IMG/VR virus record: IMGVR_UViG_3300028025_001871
Location: 1 to 48,780 of that record
DNA from: a virus
Reading direction: 5' to 3' (one strand)
DNA: 48,780 nucleotides
Positions within the stretch are counted from its first letter, which is position 1. Every line of letters starts with the position of its first letter. This document shows, piece by piece, positions 5,001-44,400 of this stretch. The notes under the pieces are model-generated. The model was not told the DNA's origin. It searched no databases and was given only the letters and a program-made list of their open reading frames with translations. The position numbers and the translations under genes were made by a program.

Positions 5001-5007
5001 TCCTTTT

Positions 5008-5024
5008 AGCCGGTGCCTAATAGG
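5008..5024 (+). promoter_or_regulatory. candidate phage promoter/regulatory motif (GGTGCCTAATA)
   Basis: AGCCGGTGCCTAATAGG lies in the 44-base gap before the HNH gene. It differs by one base from GGTACCTAATA, which occurs exactly at 15850 and 18384 and near-exactly at 6711 and, on the minus strand, at 39201. The motif is assigned by recurrence and intergenic position; no transcription start is shown. Confidence 0.4.
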
Positions 5025-5044
5025 AAAAATAGATAAAGGAATAT

Positions 5045-5623
5045 ATGAAATCTAAAACACTACATAGGCACCACATTATACCAAAACATATGGGTGGTAC
5101 TAATGATGAATGGAACTTAACAGAGCCAATTACAGTAGAAGATCACGCAAAAGCTCATAAAGAACTATTTGAACTATATGGTAAACCACAAGACTATATA
5201 GCTTGGAAATGTCTAGAAGGTAGTCTGTCAAATCAAGAAGCGAGAATACTAGCTTCAAAGATAGCAATATCAAAAGAAATTATAGTAAACAATATAAAAT
5301 ATGAATCAATCGCTGATGCACAAAAAGCGTTAGGGTTATCATACAAAAGAATTGTTAAAGCTGTATTAGAAAACAGAGACCCAACTATAAGAGCAGATGC
5401 TACACCTATAACTGTGAATGGAATACAATACAAGTCATTAAGAGAAGCTGAAAAGGCTACAGGGATTTCTCGTAATAAACTAAAATCAAATACTGATTTA
5501 AACAAAGATATAAGAAAAGAAAAACTTAAATGTCCACACTGTAACAAAGAAGGTGATAAACTAAATATGGAAAGATGGCATATGAATAATTGCAAACATA
5601 AAACTGAAGGTAAAGTTCTCTGA
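5045..5623 (+). CDS. HNH homing endonuclease with NUMOD-like repeats
   Basis: A 192-residue protein. Residues 7-40 form an HNH nuclease core (HRHHIIPKHMGGTN, WNL, then EDHAKAHK), with H9/H10, N24 and H34/H38 as likely active or metal residues. Two NUMOD1-like DNA-binding repeats follow (IKYESIADAQKALGLSYKRI and IQYKSLREAEKATGIS), then a zinc-finger-like CPHC...WHMNNCKH end. This is the usual build of freestanding phage homing endonucleases. Codon use differs from the neighbours (many AGA and ATA instead of CGT and ATC), a sign of recent transfer. The gene overlaps the next ATG by one base. Confidence 0.85.
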   Translation: MKSKTLHRHHIIPKHMGGTNDEWNLTEPITVEDHAKAHKELFELYGKPQDYIAWKCLEGSLSNQEARILASKIAISKEIIVNNIKYESIADAQKALGLSYKRIVKAVLENRDPTIRADATPITVNGIQYKSLREAEKATGISRNKLKSNTDLNKDIRKEKLKCPHCNKEGDKLNMERWHMNNCKHKTEGKVL

Positions 5624-6691: not shown

Positions 6692-6708
6692 AATCAAGCC
6701 AACCGCAG

Positions 6709-6721
6709 ACGGTACCTTATA
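6709..6721 (+). promoter_or_regulatory. candidate phage promoter/regulatory motif (GGTACCTTATA)
   Basis: ACGGTACCTTATA lies in the 48-base gap between genes ending at 6691 and starting at 6740. One mismatch separates it from the intergenic GGTACCTAATA motif seen at 15850 and 18384. Its intergenic position supports a regulatory role; evidence is otherwise weak. Confidence 0.3.
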
Positions 6722-6739
6722 GATACACACGGAGAATCT

Positions 6740-8861: not shown

Positions 8862-10705
8862 GTAAATTACGCTTATGCGTAGACATTGAAACCAATGGTT
8901 TCATTCCAGATGTAAATAAAATCTGGTGTCTTGTTGCTGTTGATTCAGACAACGGGAATGTCTACTCATTCTCAGACTATGACGATGAGCTACCAAGCTT
9001 ATCTGAAGGTCTTGACTTCATATCCAAGGCTGATATCGTCTTTGGTCATAACATTATTGGCTATGACCTAGTAGTACTAGACTATATCCTTGGATTCAAA
9101 CTACCTGAGACAGTTAAGGTAGTAGACACATGGATCTTATCCCAATTAAACCAGTATAAGCGTGAGCATAAACATGGTCTTGAGGGATGGGGTGCTAAAT
9201 TAAACTACCCTAAGCTTGACTTCACTGAGTTTGATAACTACAGTAAAGAAATGCTTACATACTGTATCCGAGATGTTCAGCTGAATGTTAAGGTATACAA
9301 GGTATTAGCTGAAGAAGCTACTAACTTGATCCGTAAGTATCCTCTGTATAAGAAGGGTATCGAGGTTGAAACAGAGTTTGCTAAGATCGAGGCTGATATC
9401 CGAGCTAAAGGCTGGATGTTTGATATGGCTAAGGCTCAGACACTACTCACCGAGATCAACAACAAGTTAGATGCTATTGAGGCTGTACTTGAACCTAAGA
9501 TTGGAATGAGGTGTATCAAGACAGATGGAAAAGACGAATACAAAGAACCCGCTTGGCGTAAAGACGGATGCTATACAGTCGCCACTGTTAAACACTTTGA
9601 TTTACCGCAAGAGTCAGGAAGAACTACAAGACCTATTGAAGGACCATACTGTAGAATCTCCTTTGAACAAGGTAAAGTTGGATCAATCGAAGTCGTAAAA
9701 GACTGGTTGTACTCTATTGGATGGGTACCTGATGAATGGAATGTGGAGAAAATCAATGGTAAATTTGTTAACAAATCTCCAAAGATCACTGAGTCTTCGC
9801 TTCAAAAGCTTGGTGCAGATGCTATGCTGGTATCTGACTACTACACCATTAGAAGTCGTAAGGGTATTCTTGAAGGATGGATTAATGAAGTACGTAACAG
9901 TAAAGACAATCGTTTACATGGTCGTATGTGGACTATTGGTACTCCTACCTTTAGGTGTAGACACGAAGTTGTTGCTAATCTCCCTAGTGTTGACTCTGTT
10001 TATGGGAAAGAAATGCGAGGACTACTTGTATGTGAGCCAGGAACTACCATTATCGGTGCTGACTCAGCTGGAAATCAGATGCGTGGTCTTTGTCATTACA
10101 TACGGAACAATGATTTTACTAATGAGGTAATCAATGGAGATGTCCACCAACGAAATGCAGATGCTCTTGGTACTAGCCGCAAGCTTGCTAAGCCTTTTCT
10201 TTATGCTTTTCTGTTTGGGGGTGGTGATGGTAAGCTTGGTCTCATACTTACGGGAAAGACAGATGCAAAGACGGGTAAGATTGCTAAGGAAAAGTTTGAG
10301 AACTCAATCCCCGGATTAAAGGAACTCAAGGACAACCTATCAAGTCTGTTTGATAAGACATCTAATACATTCGGTAAAGATAAAGCCTTCATCAGAGGTA
10401 TCGATGGTCGTATGGTCTTTGTAAGCTCTCAACACCAAGTACTTAACTACCTATTACAGACTGCTGAAGGTGTCAGCTGCAAGGCTGCAGCGGTATATCT
10501 CAGAGACAAACTAAAAGAACGTAACATCCCACATTACTTTGTTCTACACTATCATGATGAAGTTGCTGTTGTAACTAAAGATGAGTATGCAGAAGAAGTA
10601 GCAGAGCTATCTATCGAAGCATTCACCGAAGCACCTAAGTGGTTTGGTATCGAGTGCATGGGTGGTGATGCACACACAGGTAAAACATATGCAGAGGTAC
10701 ACTAA
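8858..10705 (+). CDS. DNA polymerase, family A, with 3'-5' exonuclease domain
   Basis: A 615-residue T7-type replicative polymerase, shorter than T7 gp5 (704). The exonuclease domain has VDIETNG (D9, E11), FGHNIIGYD (D70) and YCIRD. The polymerase domain has TFRCRHEVVANLP, motif A DSAGNQMRGL (D402), motif B SRKLAKPFLYAFLFGGGD and motif C HYHDEVAVV (H566-D567-E568). In motif A the glutamate that normally follows (E480 in T7, the rNTP gate) is Q407. In motif B the Tyr equivalent to T7 Y526 is kept and Y530 is replaced by Phe. Thioredoxin encoded at 18138 could act as processivity factor, but no T7-like thioredoxin-binding loop was identified with confidence. It overlaps its neighbours by 4 nt and 1 nt. 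Confidence 0.95.
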   Translation: MSKLRLCVDIETNGFIPDVNKIWCLVAVDSDNGNVYSFSDYDDELPSLSEGLDFISKADIVFGHNIIGYDLVVLDYILGFKLPETVKVVDTWILSQLNQYKREHKHGLEGWGAKLNYPKLDFTEFDNYSKEMLTYCIRDVQLNVKVYKVLAEEATNLIRKYPLYKKGIEVETEFAKIEADIRAKGWMFDMAKAQTLLTEINNKLDAIEAVLEPKIGMRCIKTDGKDEYKEPAWRKDGCYTVATVKHFDLPQESGRTTRPIEGPYCRISFEQGKVGSIEVVKDWLYSIGWVPDEWNVEKINGKFVNKSPKITESSLQKLGADAMLVSDYYTIRSRKGILEGWINEVRNSKDNRLHGRMWTIGTPTFRCRHEVVANLPSVDSVYGKEMRGLLVCEPGTTIIGADSAGNQMRGLCHYIRNNDFTNEVINGDVHQRNADALGTSRKLAKPFLYAFLFGGGDGKLGLILTGKTDAKTGKIAKEKFENSIPGLKELKDNLSSLFDKTSNTFGKDKAFIRGIDGRMVFVSSQHQVLNYLLQTAEGVSCKAAAVYLRDKLKERNIPHYFVLHYHDEVAVVTKDEYAEEVAELSIEAFTEAPKWFGIECMGGDAHTGKTYAEVH

Positions 10706-11556
10706 TGATTGAATCAGAAGATCAATTTGATGTAGCAATCATTGATGCTGATAGTATCTTATATCAGATTGCTTACATGCAACCATCCCCATCGTTATGT
10801 CGTAAGGCTCTTGACGATAAGCTCAAAGAGATTATGACTAACACTGGATCTATTCATGGTGCAGTCTTTATTAAAGGTAAAGATAACTTCAGGTATGCAG
10901 TAGATGCAGCATATAAAGGTAATCGTAAAGATACCATTGAACCTGAAGTTAAAGATCGCATTGAAGACTTATACGAATACAGTAAAGAGTTTAGTATACA
11001 GTCAGATGGTGGTGAGGCAGACGACTACTGTGGTATTGCTGCAGACCTTGCTCTCAATGAGGGTAAGCGTTATATTGTATGCCACATAGATAAAGATCTG
11101 GACTGCATACCAGGATGGCACTATAATTTCCGTAAGGATACTATGTATTACGTAGAGCCTGAGGATGGTTACAGGTTCTTGATGATGCAAATCCTTACTG
11201 GAGATGCCACAGATAATATCCAAGGACTACGTGGTGTTGGACCCAAGACAGCTGAGAAGCTAATCAATGGGGTTCCTAATAACCTACTGTGGTCAAGGGT
11301 TATTGACATCTGGAAAGAAAAATGTGGTGATAATTGGGAGCAATTCTTTTTGAAGTGTGCTAACTGTATCTACATTAGAGAGACAGCTGCAGACTTGATA
11401 CCACTGACATTTGAAGAATTAAAGGAACGACTATCATGGAAGACTATGGACACTGGATTGCGCTCACAGAGCGACCAGCCAACGCCTTCGGATTCATCTA
11501 CTACATCGAAAACCTCGAAACAGGAAGACGATATATCGGAAGAAAGCAACTCATAA
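10705..11556 (+). CDS. 5'-3' exonuclease (T7 gp6-like, FEN/PIN fold)
   Basis: A 283-residue protein. Metal-binding acidic motifs of the FEN family are visible in order: IIDADSILY near the start, AAYKGNRK, GGEADDYCG, CHIDKDLDCIPG and GDATDNIQGLRGVGPKTAEKL (an H3TH DNA-binding element). In T7 the homologue removes RNA primers and degrades host DNA, and is needed for recombination. The conserved core ends around ELKERL; the last ~40 residues (Ser/Thr/Asp-rich, no conserved pattern) lie in a 121-nt overlap with the following GIY-YIG gene and seem to be a by-product of that overlap. Confidence 0.9.
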   Translation: MIESEDQFDVAIIDADSILYQIAYMQPSPSLCRKALDDKLKEIMTNTGSIHGAVFIKGKDNFRYAVDAAYKGNRKDTIEPEVKDRIEDLYEYSKEFSIQSDGGEADDYCGIAADLALNEGKRYIVCHIDKDLDCIPGWHYNFRKDTMYYVEPEDGYRFLMMQILTGDATDNIQGLRGVGPKTAEKLINGVPNNLLWSRVIDIWKEKCGDNWEQFFLKCANCIYIRETAADLIPLTFEELKERLSWKTMDTGLRSQSDQPTPSDSSTTSKTSKQEDDISEESNS

Positions 11557-13618: not shown

Positions 13619-15820
13619 ATGAATCCATTAAACTATCTTACTGAACGTGTATCGAAGGTTGTTATCAACTCAGATAAGATCTACAATGAGGGTGCTCGCC
13701 TTCTAGCACACTATCCAACATGGGAATATGAACTTGAACGCTTTATTAACGAGTCGTGGGATACATTACTTCGTTACTGTATCCGAAATAAAAATGCAAC
13801 GCATTCTGCCTCTGTTAAACTCACTTTCGCATCTGACCTTATCGGAAAAAGAATTGCAAGAGCTATCGGAGCTGATGAGACAGACATCAAAACAACTTTA
13901 TCTCTTGGAGACTTACTGCTCGAAACTTTCCTCCAAGACGGACTGATTGATATCTTCAGAGAGTATGCTGGTTACAAGGCTCCATACATGGTACGCATTG
14001 TTAACCAAGCAGACGACATCAAGCCTACCTTAATTGGTACTTCATTCGACCCTTTGTTACCTATTGCTGGACTCTATAGTCCACTCACTAAAGAACCATT
14101 CATTAAGGGCTGGACTAACTCTAAGCTATTCCATGAGAACCTTAATAAAACTTTTGTACGTTCCCTTGAAACATTACGTCAACAACCATGGAAACTTAAC
14201 ATGCCTGTATTATCAGCTATGCAAGCACAGACTCCTAAAGAAATCCTTGAGTTGATTGATGAAGATGGTGTTATCAGGGAATACAACATACACCATGAGA
14301 ACTTAGACTTACCTAAGAAGTTGTTCCATACAGACGGTACTAAGTTCCTTGGAAAGAAAGATCCTAAGCTACAGCGTATGCTCAGTAAATACTTTGAGTA
14401 TATGCAAGTACTTAAGAAAGCAGAATTGATTGGTGAAAGAACATTCTATCAGGAAGTTTCATGTGACTACCGAGGTAGAGTGTACTATGCAGAATCATTC
14501 TTGGAGTTCCAAGGTAGTGACTTGGCTCGTAGCTTATTCTTGTTTGCTAATAAGAAGAAGGTTACTGAACGTGGTTTGTTCTGGATTAAGGTTCATACAG
14601 CAGCCTGTTATAACAAGTCATTCAACATTGACTCTATACCATCCTACTTTAAGACAGACTATAAGGCTTACCTTGAGAGTGAAGGCTTAGATACTATCTC
14701 TGTAGATAAGATGACACTGGAAGACAGAGTTGCATGGGTAGATAACAACATAGAGTTTGTTTATGAGACTGCTCGTATGAAGACTATTCATCAGGATGCA
14801 GAGAAGGCTTATAGCTTCTTAGCTTGCTGTAATGAGTTGTTAGGTTATAAGAGAGCATCAATGGAAAAGAAAGACTTTATGTCTGGACTACCTATACCTA
14901 TTGATGGTTCTAATAACGGATGGCAACACTTAGCGGCTATGTCTAAAGACAAACAAGCTGGTACACTGGTGTCCCTTGTTCCTACACCTATCCAAAAAGA
15001 CTTCTATGTAGCTGTAGCTAAAGAACTCATTGGTATTATGCCTGAGTACTTTGAAGAAAAGAATATGCCAATGAAACATATCCGTAAGGGTATTGCTAAA
15101 CGAGGCTCAATGACTCGTGCATACAGTGCAGGTAAGCTACGTATCGCTAAGAATATGTATGATGACTGTCACGTAGAAGGGTTTACTGTTAAGTATAACA
15201 TCACTGAAGAACAGTGTGACATACTAGCAGGTAACTTAATCAAAGCCATTAACACGGTCTGTGCAGGACCACTTAAGACAACCAAGTATTTACAAAAAAT
15301 AGCTGAACATGAACTCAACTCAGGAAGAAATCAACTCGCATGGACAACCCCATCAGGGTTCCCTGTGGTATACAAGGCTTACCTCCAGCATGAACGGAAA
15401 CAAAGAGGAACTATTAAAGGTATCCAAGGAAATAAAGACGGACGTGTCATGCACGTTATTAAGGTTGACGTACTTAACAAGGAAACTGGTGAACGTGTTC
15501 CTTGTAGACGCTCCTTTGCTTCTGGTATCAGTCCTAACGTTGTGCACTCATATGATGCTGCTCACATGGCAAACACTATCGTCAGCTTTAACGGTTCTTT
15601 TGGAGCAGTGCATGATAGTTTCAGTACACATGCGAATGAAGTTGATTTCCTACAAGAAGTAACTAAGCTTACCTTCATTGCACAGTATGATGTAGATAAC
15701 TTCTTTAACATCATTCAAGATACCCTTATGGATAATAAGGATACATTCACCTTCAATCAACCTGAACTGGGTAACCTAGTACTCAGTGAGGTTATGGAAT
15801 CTAAATACTTTTTCTGCTAA
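13619..15820 (+). CDS. DNA-directed RNA polymerase, single-subunit T7-type
   Basis: A 733-residue phage RNA polymerase, shorter than T7 gp1 (883), with the reduction mainly in the N-terminal and inter-motif parts. The DxxGR motif (DYRGR, D283-R287), motif A IDGSNNGWQH (D429), motif B IAKRGSMTRAYS (K494, Y502) and motif C VHDSF (H665-D666) are all intact. In motif B the glycine after Tyr is Ser. It should read phage-specific promoters, for which the GGTACCTAATA motif is a candidate. Its gene lies in the middle of the replication cluster rather than at the early end, so something else must transcribe it first (host RNA polymerase, or the candidate virion polymerase at 19840). Confidence 0.95.
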   Translation: MNPLNYLTERVSKVVINSDKIYNEGARLLAHYPTWEYELERFINESWDTLLRYCIRNKNATHSASVKLTFASDLIGKRIARAIGADETDIKTTLSLGDLLLETFLQDGLIDIFREYAGYKAPYMVRIVNQADDIKPTLIGTSFDPLLPIAGLYSPLTKEPFIKGWTNSKLFHENLNKTFVRSLETLRQQPWKLNMPVLSAMQAQTPKEILELIDEDGVIREYNIHHENLDLPKKLFHTDGTKFLGKKDPKLQRMLSKYFEYMQVLKKAELIGERTFYQEVSCDYRGRVYYAESFLEFQGSDLARSLFLFANKKKVTERGLFWIKVHTAACYNKSFNIDSIPSYFKTDYKAYLESEGLDTISVDKMTLEDRVAWVDNNIEFVYETARMKTIHQDAEKAYSFLACCNELLGYKRASMEKKDFMSGLPIPIDGSNNGWQHLAAMSKDKQAGTLVSLVPTPIQKDFYVAVAKELIGIMPEYFEEKNMPMKHIRKGIAKRGSMTRAYSAGKLRIAKNMYDDCHVEGFTVKYNITEEQCDILAGNLIKAINTVCAGPLKTTKYLQKIAEHELNSGRNQLAWTTPSGFPVVYKAYLQHERKQRGTIKGIQGNKDGRVMHVIKVDVLNKETGERVPCRRSFASGISPNVVHSYDAAHMANTIVSFNGSFGAVHDSFSTHANEVDFLQEVTKLTFIAQYDVDNFFNIIQDTLMDNKDTFTFNQPELGNLVLSEVMESKYFFC

Positions 15821-15845
15821 GAGTCGGTAGTGAACCGTCTCGGTG

Positions 15846-15862
15846 AGCCGGTACCTAATACC
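15846..15862 (+). promoter_or_regulatory. candidate phage promoter motif (GGTACCTAATA) before RNR
   Basis: AGCCGGTACCTAATACC lies in the 68-base gap between the RNA polymerase and ribonucleotide reductase genes. The 11-mer GGTACCTAATA recurs exactly at 18384 and with one mismatch at 5012, 6711 and on the minus strand at 39201. The rest of the gap contains imperfect CGGT/ACCG inverted repeats but no T-run, so I do not call a terminator there. Confidence 0.45.
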
Positions 15863-15888
15863 AGACAACAATTAACAACAAGGAACAC

Positions 15889-18141: not shown

Positions 18142-18392
18142 AGCTACTTAAATTTTCTGCAGCATGGTGTCAACCATGTAAGCAATTAGATAAAATCCTG
18201 ACAGAAGCACTACCAGAGTATCCTGATATTGAGCTTGTTCATATGCCTATTGAGGACAACAAAGACTCAGTGTCTTACTATGGTATTCGTTCTGTACCTA
18301 CTATGATTATTGTTGATGACAATGATCAGGTGTTACGTACATCGGTAGGCTTTGATGCTAATAAGGTTAAGCCTTTCCTAGCAGGTACCTAA
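18138..18392 (+). CDS. thioredoxin
   Basis: An 84-residue thioredoxin-fold protein, shorter than E. coli thioredoxin (about 108). It has FSAAWCQPCKQLD (active-site C11-x-x-C14, WCQPC rather than WCGPC) and GIRSVPTMII with the cis-proline. It would re-reduce the C-terminal cysteines of the phage ribonucleotide reductase encoded just upstream. Its stop codon TAA is embedded in a copy of the candidate promoter motif. It overlaps the HNH gene by 4 nt (ATGA), which places the reductase and thioredoxin in one unit despite the insertion. Confidence 0.9.
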   Translation: MKLLKFSAAWCQPCKQLDKILTEALPEYPDIELVHMPIEDNKDSVSYYGIRSVPTMIIVDDNDQVLRTSVGFDANKVKPFLAGT

Positions 18393-18394
18393 TA
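18384..18394 (+). promoter_or_regulatory. candidate phage promoter motif (GGTACCTAATA) before tRNA cluster
   Basis: An exact copy of the 11-mer at 15850, overlapping the last codons and stop of thioredoxin and ending 8 nt before the tRNA. Because it is partly coding (Gly-Thr-stop), the match alone is weaker evidence than at 15850; its place directly before the tRNA genes supports a regulatory role. Confidence 0.35.
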
Positions 18395-18401
18395 GAAATA
18401 A

Positions 18402-18476
18402 AGCGGGGTAGCTCAGTAGAAGAGCGCTGGACTCATAATCCAGAGGTCAGAGGTGCGACTCCTTTCTCCGCAACCA
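18402..18476 (+). tRNA. tRNA with CAT anticodon (Met or Ile2)
   Basis: The cloverleaf is clear: D stem GCTC/GAGC, anticodon stem CTGGA/TCCAG around a CTCATAA loop (CAT at 18434-18436), a five-pair T stem with G-U pairs, and an acceptor GCGGGG paired with CTCCGC followed by discriminator A and an encoded CCA. Oddities are a mismatched first pair and TGCGACT in place of the usual TTCGA-type T loop. CAT could be elongator Met, or Ile decoding ATA if C34 is modified to lysidine; the sequence alone does not decide. Confidence 0.8.
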
Positions 18477-18480
18477 AACC

Positions 18481-18587
18481 CTCCGATAGTCAAGTGATTA
18501 GGTTCATGAGATATTCGGCACCAAGGTGTGCAAACATCTTGCAGTGTATAGTCACTGCGGTCCGACTCCACCGATACGGAGTCACCA
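18481..18587 (+). ncRNA. tRNA-like structured RNA, degenerate or non-canonical
   Basis: CTCCG (18481-18485) pairs with CGGAG (18577-18581). Inside are an AAGGTGT/ACATCTT stem with a GCAA loop, a perfect GCAGTG/CACTGC stem like a type II variable arm, and TCCGACT bounded by GG/CC like a T loop. ACCA closes the segment. The D arm cannot be built normally and the anticodon loop would be 8 nt, so the element is either a degenerate tRNA or another small RNA. Confidence 0.35.
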
Positions 18588-18595
18588 AACAATGC

Positions 18596-18670
18596 GGGTG
18601 GTGTAATTCAATGGCAGAATCGAGAATGTATAAGTCTCGGGATGTGGTGTTCGATTCCCACTACCACCCA
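18596..18670 (+). tRNA. tRNA-like sequence, anticodon uncertain
   Basis: GGGTGGT (18596-18602) pairs perfectly with ACCACCC (18663-18669). A D arm ATTC/GAAT with AATGGCA loop and a TTCGATT T-loop core are evident. The anticodon stem CGAGA/TCTCG encloses 9 nt (ATGTATAAG) instead of 7, and the T arm has one extra base. GTA (Tyr) or TAT (Ile) could be read depending on the fold. It may be a functional irregular tRNA or a decayed copy. Confidence 0.45.
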
Positions 18671-39181: not shown

Positions 39182-39200
39182 GGGATATCCTTTTTATTAC

Positions 39201-39213
39201 TAATAGGTACCGA
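39201..39213 (-). promoter_or_regulatory. candidate phage promoter motif on minus strand (GGTACCTATTA)
   Basis: In the 32-base gap between the M15 peptidase stop and the tail hub ATG, the minus strand reads TCGGTACCTATTAG, one mismatch from GGTACCTAATA. Its presence upstream of a structural gene on the other strand supports a role as a late promoter. Confidence 0.4.
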
Positions 39214-39672
39214 TTAAGTTTTGTTATATTCTTCTTCAGTTAACAGACCTACTTTATATTTATTATCTGGTCGGAAGATAGTTAACTTCTGACCACGCAT
39301 TTCAGGTGCAAAAGAGATATGAGTCCAACGACCATACTCATGGATCATCTGATCAAACTTAATACCTGCGGCTTCAATAGCTTTACATACAGCAAGGGGA
39401 TTACCATATGACGAAGTAAAGTCAATAGCCCATCCGTCCATATGTGACGATACTCGTGAACCACCTACAGCTACATTTACTTCAGGTAGTCTCAACCAAG
39501 AGTTAACGCTGATAGGTTTACCGAGGACAGCTCTAATCTGTTGCATACCCTCAGCAGCTTTCTTCATATTCTCAAGTTGACGTTCATCGGGTTGATTGTT
39601 GATACCCATTCGAACAGCTGTGTCTGAGTGTGTAGCTTCTTCTAATGTAAAGTTTTCACTTAGCTTTGTCAT
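39214..39672 (-). CDS. endolysin, M15 family peptidase
   Basis: A 152-residue zinc peptidase. VNSWLRLPEVN, SSHMDGWAIDF (zinc ligands H77 and D84) and IHEYGRWTHISF (E112 catalytic, H118 zinc ligand) are the family hallmarks. M15 endolysins cut the peptide part of peptidoglycan (D-Ala-D-Ala or L-Ala-D-Glu bonds). No signal peptide or TM segment is seen, so it depends on the holin encoded just upstream, which it overlaps by 4 nt. Confidence 0.88.
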   Translation of the reverse strand: MTKLSENFTLEEATHSDTAVRMGINNQPDERQLENMKKAAEGMQQIRAVLGKPISVNSWLRLPEVNVAVGGSRVSSHMDGWAIDFTSSYGNPLAVCKAIEAAGIKFDQMIHEYGRWTHISFAPEMRGQKLTIFRPDNKYKVGLLTEEEYNKT

Positions 39673-40076
39673 TTCTTAACCCTGTCTGCAATCTTTTCCA
39701 TTGTACGACCACCAAAGTAAAAGGACATAACTAGCATACCCCATTGACCCAGTAGCTCAACATAAGCCCCACGAGTTTCATACTCAAATATTGAAGCAAT
39801 AGCAAAGCCTGAGTAGGCTACTAAAAGGAAAACTAGAGTTAATGGACGTATATTCTTAGACATCCATGAGTCACTCACCATATCTGCTTGCATACGCTGA
39901 GTTAAATTATTCTGTTCTGTTTCATAAAGTTTGGTTTCATTAGCCATCTTAGCTAACTCACCATCTTGAGCCATCTTCTGTAGCTCCAACTGAGCTTTAG
40001 CTTTCTGCTCAGGGTCTGGGATAAGCTTATCAATCAGCTTACCGCCTACGTTTAATAGGGCTTCTAATCCTAACAT
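39669..40076 (-). CDS. holin (3TM holin family)
   Basis: A 135-residue protein. It has an N-terminal helix (LGLEALLNVGGKLIDKLIPDPEQKA), an Ala/Gln/Glu-rich middle, then WMSKNIRPLTLVFLLVAYSGF and a second hydrophobic stretch (VELLGQWGMLVMSFYFGGR). The IPDPEQKA..QLEL segment followed by SKNIRPLT and two TM helices is the signature of the 3TM holin family. It forms membrane lesions that release the M15 endolysin. It is ATGA-coupled to the endolysin gene. Confidence 0.83.
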   Translation of the reverse strand: MLGLEALLNVGGKLIDKLIPDPEQKAKAQLELQKMAQDGELAKMANETKLYETEQNNLTQRMQADMVSDSWMSKNIRPLTLVFLLVAYSGFAIASIFEYETRGAYVELLGQWGMLVMSFYFGGRTMEKIADRVKK

Positions 40077-40087
40077 ATATTTCCCTT

Positions 40088-40330
40088 CTATGCGTACTTA
40101 TCAAAGTGTGTCTGGTTATTAAATATTTCTATCTCAACAGTAGTCTGTCTAGCTCTTTTGTGATATAGTTCTAAAGCTAGTTCATCAATGGCTTGTCTAA
40201 TTTCATTAGCCTTAAGTTCTTGTTCATACTCAGATTGTAATCTTTGAACCCTCTTTTCGAAAGCTATTGATCTTACATCATAAGGAGTAGGGAAAACAAA
40301 GGGATACCATTTATGTAATGAGGTAATCAT
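40088..40330 (-). CDS. small helical protein in lysis region
   Basis: An 80-residue protein. After a start with aromatic residues (MITSLHKWYPFVFPTPYDV) there is one long charged helix (AFEKRVQRLQSEYEQELKANEIRQAIDELALELYHKRAR). No TM segment is evident. It overlaps the next gene upstream (40327) by 4 nt. It may be a holin partner or a spanin-like component, but nothing in the sequence proves that. Confidence 0.55.
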   Translation of the reverse strand: MITSLHKWYPFVFPTPYDVRSIAFEKRVQRLQSEYEQELKANEIRQAIDELALELYHKRARQTTVEIEIFNNQTHFDKYA

Positions 40331-40620
40331 TTAATACCTTCTCTCTCAACAAGATGTTGATAAAGAATAACTACCTTACTTCTTAGTTCGGCACTGTCTG
40401 CAGTACCAGCCCATTCAGGTAGGTTATTCCAGATTAACACTAAATCTTCTTTATTACACTTAGAACCATTAAGGTCTAACCACCGGTTAAGGTGAACGTG
40501 TCGTTCAGATGGATTGTGTATTGTTATACCTAATCCATAGAACTCCACTGTAGAGCATCTAATCGTCTGAGAAGATGCTACTGATATCATCGATAATACT
40601 ACAGCTAGTAGCCACTTCAT
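40327..40620 (-). CDS. exported small protein in lysis region
   Basis: A 97-residue protein with a clear signal peptide (MKWLLAVVLSMISVASS). Possible cleavage follows ASS. The mature part has two cysteines, in IRCSTVEFYGLG and SKCNKEDL, and could form one disulphide in the periplasm. No lipobox is seen, so it is not a typical outer-membrane o-spanin. The family is not recognised. Confidence 0.6.
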   Translation of the reverse strand: MKWLLAVVLSMISVASSQTIRCSTVEFYGLGITIHNPSERHVHLNRWLDLNGSKCNKEDLVLIWNNLPEWAGTADSAELRSKVVILYQHLVEREGIK

Positions 40621-41478: not shown

Positions 41479-41494
41479 AATTTTCCTTTATTTA

Positions 41495-44400
41495 TTAAAT
41501 ACCTGCGTCTGCAAGGCGTTTGCGGAGAGATTGAATCTCAGCCCACATTACAGGAATGAGAGCAGAAGCATCCATTTGTTGATACACAGGATTTCCGTCA
41601 ACATCCACTGCATCTTTTACACCAGTATGTGCATACTCAGGTGTTTCGTGAGCAATAAACATTGGGCGCTCTTGTGTGGCACCTTTCATTTTACCCATGT
41701 AAACAGGAGTTGAATCGATTAGTTCACCACTACCAGTTACAGGACCAATAATATCTTTAGCTCTGTAATCAGAAGTAATGTTGTAAGCAACAAGACCTGC
41801 ACCTCGGTTGTAAGAAATTGTACCTCGAACAGTTGCGGTTGTCTCTGTTTCAAAAGACACAAAGTTGTTATTACCAGTAGTTGGTTGTGACCAAGCAGAA
41901 TAAACAAATTGTGTTCCAGCAGAAGAGGATATTGTTCCTGTAATTGCAGGTTGAGAACCAGCGCCTACAGCGTTTATACGCCCATCTTGGTAAGCGGCAG
42001 TAGCGGTAAGACCTACTAACAAGTTACCGCTTGAGTCTATACGGGCACGCTCTGTGTAATTTGTACCAAACACCATTGGTGTTGCTGTAGCAGTCCACAA
42101 AGCCAATGAATAAGTAGTATCAGTTTGAATACGACCAAGTGTTGTGCCAGCAGATTGCAAATCAATGATGCTACCTGTTGTAGCGTTCATTGTTATTGTT
42201 TTGTAATTTGATAGGTTTGTTGGAGAAGTTGAGCCAATACCTAAATTACCCTCAGCCGTCAGAGTCATTGCCTGAGTAAAGGTAATGGCGTTTCCTGCTG
42301 TGCCGGTAGGGGCTGTATACCATTTGTGAATTCCAAAATCGCTTTGGTAACGACTTGCGCCAAGAGATGATGTGTGATAAGTCCAAGCATTTGACCCGCT
42401 GTTGTAAGCATTGCTTGTGACATTAAAATCACCTCCTGTTGCAACACCTACTGTAGACCCATAAGCAAATTGAATAACTTTTGCAGTAGTTGCCAACGCA
42501 CTAGGAGTAACTCCCAAGCCTAGATTGCCTGATGAGTCAAGGCGCATACGCTCTGCATAAGCAGAACCGTTATAACCTTGCCAAACAAAAGAACCATATC
42601 CACTTGAGTTTTGGACAACTCCAAAGAACTCTTGAGATGTTGCACCAAAGTTTGAAAAGTTAATACCGCCATAAGAATCTGTTGCACTGCCATAGTTAAG
42701 ACGTAGTTGACCCCCAACATAACTACCACCTGAATAAGCGGTTGTAGCAGTAGTATCAAAACGAGCAACTGAGTTAGTAGTTGGAGCTGTACTACCACCA
42801 TTAACATGTAATCTTGTTGCAGGACTACTTGTAGCAATACCTAAGTTACCAGACCCGTTAATACGAATCCGCTCTACAGCATTAATATTAAATACATGGC
42901 TGGAAGAATCATAAACTAAGTTTACATAATAACCACCACTTTGATGATAACTTTGGATTAAGTTAGATGTTCCGCTAAATGCTGGTACAAAATCAATACC
43001 GCTTGCACCAGCTGATGAAACAGTTAACTTACCTGCAGGAGTTGTAGTTCCAATACCTAAGTTACCACTACCGTTTATACGCATTGCCTCAGACAAACTA
43101 ATCGTGCTATCTGCCGCACCAGTTCCTGCATACTGCCAAACAAATGGCGTTCCAGTATTACCAACTTGAAATAAACTTACATGACCAGCTGCTTTGCGTT
43201 TATTTGCACCATCATAGTAAATGTTGTTACTAAAATATGCGTATGATGCATCAGATGAAAGTGCTCCGTTGTATCTAAAATCAATAAGACCAATAGATGC
43301 AGTCCAATTACTGGGAGTTACACCAATTCCAAGCACTCCGATTGAGGAAAGGCGCATACGCTCTACTGGCAAATCTCCTGCGTTTGTGTAGTCATTTGCA
43401 CCAAAAATCACAGCACCTTGAGAAGCCGCTGTCCCAGCAACTGCACTATTTTGTTTTTCAAACCAAACACCTGCGGTGTACTGTGAAGTTGTGATATCTC
43501 TCCAAGTGTTTGAAAAAATACCACCTGCAACAAATGTACCAGCAGTAGAATTAGGATTAGAAAGAACAACAGACGCTGTGGCTGCAACAGTCCCCGCACT
43601 AGATGAACGCTCAATATTTAATGCGCCCTGAACGCTTGTAGCCCCTACCCCCAAACTACCACTTGCATTTAGAGTCATTACTTGAGTAAAGGAAACATTG
43701 TTTCCTGCTGTGCCTGATGCCGCTGTGTACCAACGAGCCGCTGCTGAACCACCTACACTTGAGTAATAAGCAGGATTGCTATTGAGGTATTTCCAGTTTG
43801 TTCCATCGTAGAAAGCATTTGATGCAATGAAAGCATCGTTAAAACCAGAGCCGCCACTAAACGATGCCGCTGTACCAGTTTGAATGGCTTTGATTGAACT
43901 CCAAGCACTAGGAGTAACTCCCAAACCTAAATTGCCAGCGGTGTCCAGCGTCATGCGCTTGTTATCAGATGTCCAGAATGTAATTGGTTGGAATGAACCA
44001 GTACTTCCATAAGTTGCAACAACTCGCCACTCTGGTTGAGAATTGTTGTTGTACATCAAGAACTGCGAGTCATTAGCATTTGACTCAAGCCTGATTCCTG
44101 ATGCATCTGATGTTTGTTTTACATGAAGTTTGTTTGAAGGTGAAGTAGTTCCAATGCCAAGGTCACCATCGGCATCCAGAGTCATGGCTTGCGTGAAAGT
44201 GATAGCGTTTCCTGCTGTACCAGATGCGGTATTATACCAACGATGTTCATTGGAAGTTAATGCGTACTGAGCTGCAGTAGAAGACGCTATGTATTTCCAA
44301 CTTCCATCATAGTAAGCATTGTTGTTAAGGAAAAGCCAATCAGAAACAGTGTTTCCAGTTGTAAACGATGAAATAGACCCGTTGTTGTCTCCAATTTGAA

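Follow-up and report, generated by a model that had tools for sequence, protein, structure and literature searches.

A candidate promoter family of T7-type RNA polymerases in an uncultivated phage group

Phages T7 and T3 have related RNA polymerases (RNAPs) whose promoters differ in the recognition half and keep the initiation box, the change being located in the specificity loop. The T7 promoter is contiguous, extending from about −17 to +6, with the recognition part upstream and the initiation part downstream (PMC13029058). The promoter of the marine cyanophage Syn5 is ATTGGGCACCCGTAA, and two promoters are reported in its genome (PMC3950665, from which the T7 consensus used for our comparison was also taken). 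The nearest named relative of the phage analyzed here is Roseobacter phage CRP-7, whose RNAP is 32% identical to ours over the whole length and whose replication genes follow a similar order. The CRP-7 paper does not mention promoters (PMC6918029), and a motif search combined with word enrichment in this phage revealed neither a site of the family described below nor any enriched motif of such a type. A literature search returned no paper on this promoter family, the motif letters occurring only in contexts that are unrelated as judged by their titles.

The stretch of DNA analyzed (hereafter the window) comprises positions 1 to 48,780 of the 48,780-base virus record IMGVR_UViG_3300028025_001871. 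Its rightward left arm encodes a family A DNA polymerase, an exonuclease, a primase-helicase, a T7-type RNA polymerase and a B12-dependent ribonucleotide reductase (RNR), and its leftward right arm carries head and lysis genes. A reading made earlier from the letters of the window (the sequence-only reading) had taken a 733-aa ORF (13619–15820, plus strand) for the polymerase, and this ORF is indeed assigned to the T7-type single-subunit RNAPs by PF00940 (E 2e-56) and phrog_414 (E 2.6e-97). The best fold matches of its AlphaFold model (pLDDT 84.9) are the T7 RNAP complexes 3e2e, 3e3j and 1cez, the latter a promoter complex.

Candidate promoter sites in the window

The same reading had proposed a recurring 11-bp word as a candidate phage promoter on both strands. 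Its two exact copies (15850–15860 and 18384–18394) and three one-mismatch copies (starting at 5012, 6711 and, on the minus strand, 39201) are all present, and the expectation of 0.02 chance occurrences for an exact 11-mer is correct. The list of five is accurate, albeit not complete, as a sixth one-mismatch copy at 11271–11281 had been overlooked. We rejected this copy as a site: it lies within the exonuclease ORF (10705–11556), lacks the AG lead and has a low matrix score; only close relatives keep it, along with its coding context. A search with the bare 11-mer at two mismatches proved too noisy to be informative (27 matches in the window vs 15.9 expected).

A matrix covering −16 to +5 was built solely from the sites of relatives, with the window left out to avoid circularity. 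It picks exactly the five noted sites, at 21.8–30.7 bits, compared with a maximum of 18.9 bits in 60 simulated random sequences and 11.7 bits for the next-best match in the window. As noted before, all five copies are placed in gaps or at the edge of a gene, and each is directed towards the following gene or the tRNA cluster.

Candidate promoter 1 (5007–5027, plus strand; TAGCCGGTGCCTAATA/GGAAA, the slash here and below preceding the inferred start; 30.7 bits) has its inferred start at 5023, 22 nt upstream of a homing-endonuclease-like gene (5045–5623), and is found at the equivalent place in relatives G003 and L017/L018. Candidate promoter 2 (6706–6726, plus strand; CAGACGGTACCTTATA/GATAC; 21.8 bits; inferred start 6722) lies 18 nt, counted from the start, upstream of a 53-aa ORF, and is kept before the same ORF in G002, G015 and G017. 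Candidate promoter 3 (15845–15865, plus strand; GAGCCGGTACCTAATA/CCAGA; 27.0 bits; inferred start 15861, with CC at +1/+2) is situated between the RNAP and RNR genes, a place kept in nearly all relatives of both specificity classes (see below), mostly with CC. Candidate promoter 5 (39196–39216, minus strand; TAATCGGTACCTATTA/GTAAT; 22.7 bits; inferred start 39200) occupies the gap between the endolysin gene and a 516-aa head gene, as it does in G002, G009, G011, G015, G017 and G019.

Candidate promoter 4 (18379–18399, plus strand; TAGCAGGTACCTAATA/GAAAT; 26.6 bits; inferred start 18395) includes the TAA stop of a thioredoxin-like gene and starts 7 nt upstream of tRNA-Met, before which relatives have a site at the equivalent place. 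The first gene behind it is this tRNA-Met(CAT) (18402–18476, plus strand; called by ARAGORN, and by Rfam RF00005 at 59.4 bits), and a second, weaker tRNA-like gene with an unusual anticodon loop follows at 18597–18669 on the same strand (RF00005, 33.1 bits; no ARAGORN call). Between the two, the stretch at 18482–18586, ending in CGGAGTCACCA, resembles an atypical tRNA whose variable part is long, and is called by neither ARAGORN nor Rfam.

Sites located shortly upstream of genes, in the direction of transcription, and in one case directly before a tRNA, could also act in RNA as a processing site, a terminator or a leader element near the start codon. However, folding at every site is no better than in shuffled sequences (z −0.8 to +0.75), and no terminator-like stem (a G+C-rich stem with a T run) is present at the five sites.

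The site across the phage group

Among 95 IMG/VR loci with relatives of the window RNAP, 80 were kept for comparison. The motif recurs in these relatives at orthologous gaps, and an alignment of all sites from 19 long records (76 sites) located its information between −16 and +5, in one contiguous block of ∼21 bp, as long as a promoter of the T7 type. The full site is TAGYCGGTACCTAATA/GRAAA, with the aligned form TAG[CT]CGGTACCTAATA/G(G/A)AAA. The 11-bp word is part of a longer element, within which GGTACC is dispensable (a sister clade has CCCC there), and the AGCCGG lead pointed out before is real, corresponding to the −15 to −10 part of the full site.

The same alignment bears on the possibility that host RNA polymerase reads the sites with sigma-70 or another sigma factor, for instance as early promoters. 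Phages of such a type do need host promoters for their early genes, and TAATA is AT-rich; yet the site is a single block without a −35/−10 arrangement, none of the five places has −35/−10 hexamers spaced by 16–18 nt, and scan counts do not exceed those expected by chance from shuffles. GGTACC being a perfect palindrome, and T7-type promoters being known to prime replication as well, an operator or a replication/packaging site built on this hexamer was also considered. The CCCC clade, in which this part is non-palindromic and the rest of the site unchanged, refutes the palindrome as the functional core; in addition, the strand of the site always follows the downstream gene. We give this last explanation a negligible probability.

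A stricter count, in which the pattern AG-CGGTACCTAATA was allowed one mismatch, yielded 84 sites across 13 genomes of the uncultivated group, the reversed-pattern control giving 0. Outside ORFs of at least 100 aa, which cover 83% of the sequence, lie 77 of the 84 sites. This is the opposite of copies falling mostly inside genes, the outcome that the sequence-only reading had set against its own proposal. A phage promoter used on both strands is the best-supported reading. Each genome of the group has 4–9 sites, always oriented with the strand of the downstream gene, whose start codon follows the inferred start at a median distance of 24 nt. The conserved downstream genes are a 130-aa gene, the terminase large subunit (TerL), RNR, PhoH, the 516-aa head gene and tRNAs. 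In G016, an unbiased 9-mer enrichment with no prior motif returned CGGTACCTAAT as one of the most over-represented words. On the other hand, five loci with RNAPs 64–66% identical (L073–L077) have few or no recognisable sites, with only weak or shifted candidates, which counts against the promoter reading.

The base at −1 is A in 100% of the sites, and +1 is G in 83% and C in 17%, the C being confined to a few genomic positions. The copies directly after the RNAP gene (15861–15862 in the window) have C at +1 in both specificity classes, as CC in nearly all and as CT in one; in G006, G010 and G018 the small-ORF copy (cluster 10) likewise has C at +1, and all other conserved site classes have G. 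T7-type enzymes initiate poorly with C. The CC start of the post-RNAP copy is a further point against the promoter reading, and this class may be purposely weak, or may start at the preceding A.

Several arrangements were observed in individual records. In G016 (14778–14893, minus strand) three perfect copies stand in tandem within ∼115 bp, with no ORF in the 260 bases downstream. At L071 7266 and G028 1615, 12940 and 26230, in deeper relatives, the spacing between the recognition half and the start seems one base shorter (CCTATAG), nearer the T7 box TATAG. In 14 long records two candidate promoters face each other, 464–578 bp apart, around the ∼130-aa gene (e.g. G002 49932–50498, G003 39929–40476 and G007 41494–42046); by synteny with G002 this conserved pair would be located ∼440 bases or more before position 1 of the window. 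Rightward transcription from it would yield RNA antisense to the ∼130-aa gene, and a transcription hub or an origin is possible.

The polymerase hairpin and the recognition bases

A specificity hairpin is predicted at RNAP codons 590–617 (15386–15469, plus strand) from secondary structure and diagnostic columns; in the AlphaFold model its strands are 590–598 and 609–617, and it contains Q595, K606, D607 and M611. The HMMER alignment places window residues 609–611 on T7 756–758, and in T7 RNAP the reported contacts are N748 at −10/−11, R756 at −9 and Q758 at −8 (PMC5937735).

One RNAP subclade (B-type: L041–L044, L046–L048, L050 and L076) has TTGTCCCCTAATA after the RNAP gene, vs GTCGGTACCTAATA elsewhere (A-type), the B-type promoter variant being TGTCCCCTAATA. 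In G007, G009 and G011, word counting without a prior motif ranked GTCCCCTAATA with the most over-represented words. The two types share AG at −15/−14, CC at −7/−6 and TAATA/G, and differ at −12, −10, −9 and −8. In the RNAP tree the B-type enzymes form a single branch (support 100) nested among A-type lineages.

To compare the enzymes, columns conserved at ≥97% in 61 non-B RNAPs (n = 305) were examined in the nine B-type enzymes. Only three of them are altered in all nine (Q595H, K606P/T and D607K), and all three fall inside the hairpin (hypergeometric p 2e-4). A fourth hairpin change is M611R/N, M611 being conserved in 45 of the 46 promoter-checked A-type enzymes. In this indirect, comparative evidence, hairpin columns change where the −10 to −8 bases change. 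In L078, a distant lineage, the RNAP carries F595 and R611, yet retains K606 and D607. Enrichment of CAGGCCCCT was seen in the L078 contig, whose gap sites AGCAGGCCCCTAATA and TAGCTGGCCCCTAATA (GGCCCC) keep G at −10 and have CC at −9/−8. Taken at the level of sequence, this suggests an assignment of 595/611 to −9/−8 and of 606/607 to −10, a pairing with few events behind it: as the switch represents at most two independent events, the correlation between hairpin and promoter rests on few changes.

A host promoter would have no reason to change alongside the hairpin of the phage polymerase, and the site did change together with it; reading by a host sigma factor is thus most unlikely. The same lack of a reason applies to an element acting in RNA, which we regard as highly improbable. 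By contrast, the window phage encodes a T7-type RNAP and carries multiple gene-facing gap copies of a contiguous ∼20-bp site ending just past the inferred start, all of which characterizes the promoter class. Overall, it is very probable that the phage's own 733-aa RNAP uses the motif as its promoter. A point on the other side is that sites before early genes would be of no use until this RNAP is made.

From the T7 analogy we infer a course of binding, melting, start-base selection and timing. Host polymerase would presumably make the phage RNAP early, which would then bind the contiguous ∼21-bp site. The bases −12 to −7 (CGGTAC) would be read by the beta-hairpin specificity loop (residues 590–617), and AG at −15/−14 by the N-terminal region, both by analogy with T7. 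TAATA would be melted and RNA would begin at the next G, as in T7. In the window, four of the five starts would then drive rightward transcription, into the small genes, RNR and the tRNA cluster, and the fifth would drive the head gene leftward.

We further consider it rather likely that the change from CGGTAC to TGTCCC is a natural switch accomplished by a few hairpin substitutions (Q595H, K606P/T, D607K, M611R/N) with all sites of the genome following; that L078 reached GGCCCC independently with R611; and that the position-fixed CC class after the RNAP gene constitutes a start class of its own, probably a weak one. For T7-like phages, the joint change of a polymerase with all of its promoters is an old question, and the proposed switch offers intermediates on both sides with few candidate residues and bases. 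The A-type and B-type enzymes would be candidate orthogonal polymerase-promoter pairs for laboratory use, and the sites give a predicted map of transcription for a large phage group lacking any close isolate.

Comparison with T7, T3 and Syn5

The window RNAP shares the common single-subunit fold with T7 RNAP, as seen from its best PDB matches; identity in the fold alignment is ∼17%, and the window enzyme is the shorter by 150 aa (733 vs 883). The motif had been said not to resemble the T7, T3 or SP6 promoter. This statement is right as to its own recognition sequence, the aligned sites containing neither the T7/T3/SP6 consensus TAATACGACTCACTATAGGGA nor a close variant and differing in the recognition half, but it is too strong, as 10 of 21 positions agree with T7 in register with the inferred start (−15A, −12C, −11G, −7C, −3A, −2T, −1A, +1G, +2G and +4A). 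The T7 promoter has other bases at −10, −9, −8 and −6 to −4. With the Syn5 promoter, nine positions are shared in register (−15A, −11G, −10G, −8A, −7C, −6C, −1A, +1G and +2G), the initiation box being TAATA in the window group vs CGTAA in Syn5, whose RNAP is reportedly less strict on the initiating base. As judged by these alignments, the window sites belong to a new candidate family of T7-kind promoters whose recognition sequence is distinct, and are not T7, T3 or SP6 promoters. The best reading of the difference between A-type and B-type sites is a specificity switch analogous to that between T7 and T3, which in the window group would involve other hairpin residues (595, 606, 607 and 611) and a change at three neighbouring bases (−10 to −8).
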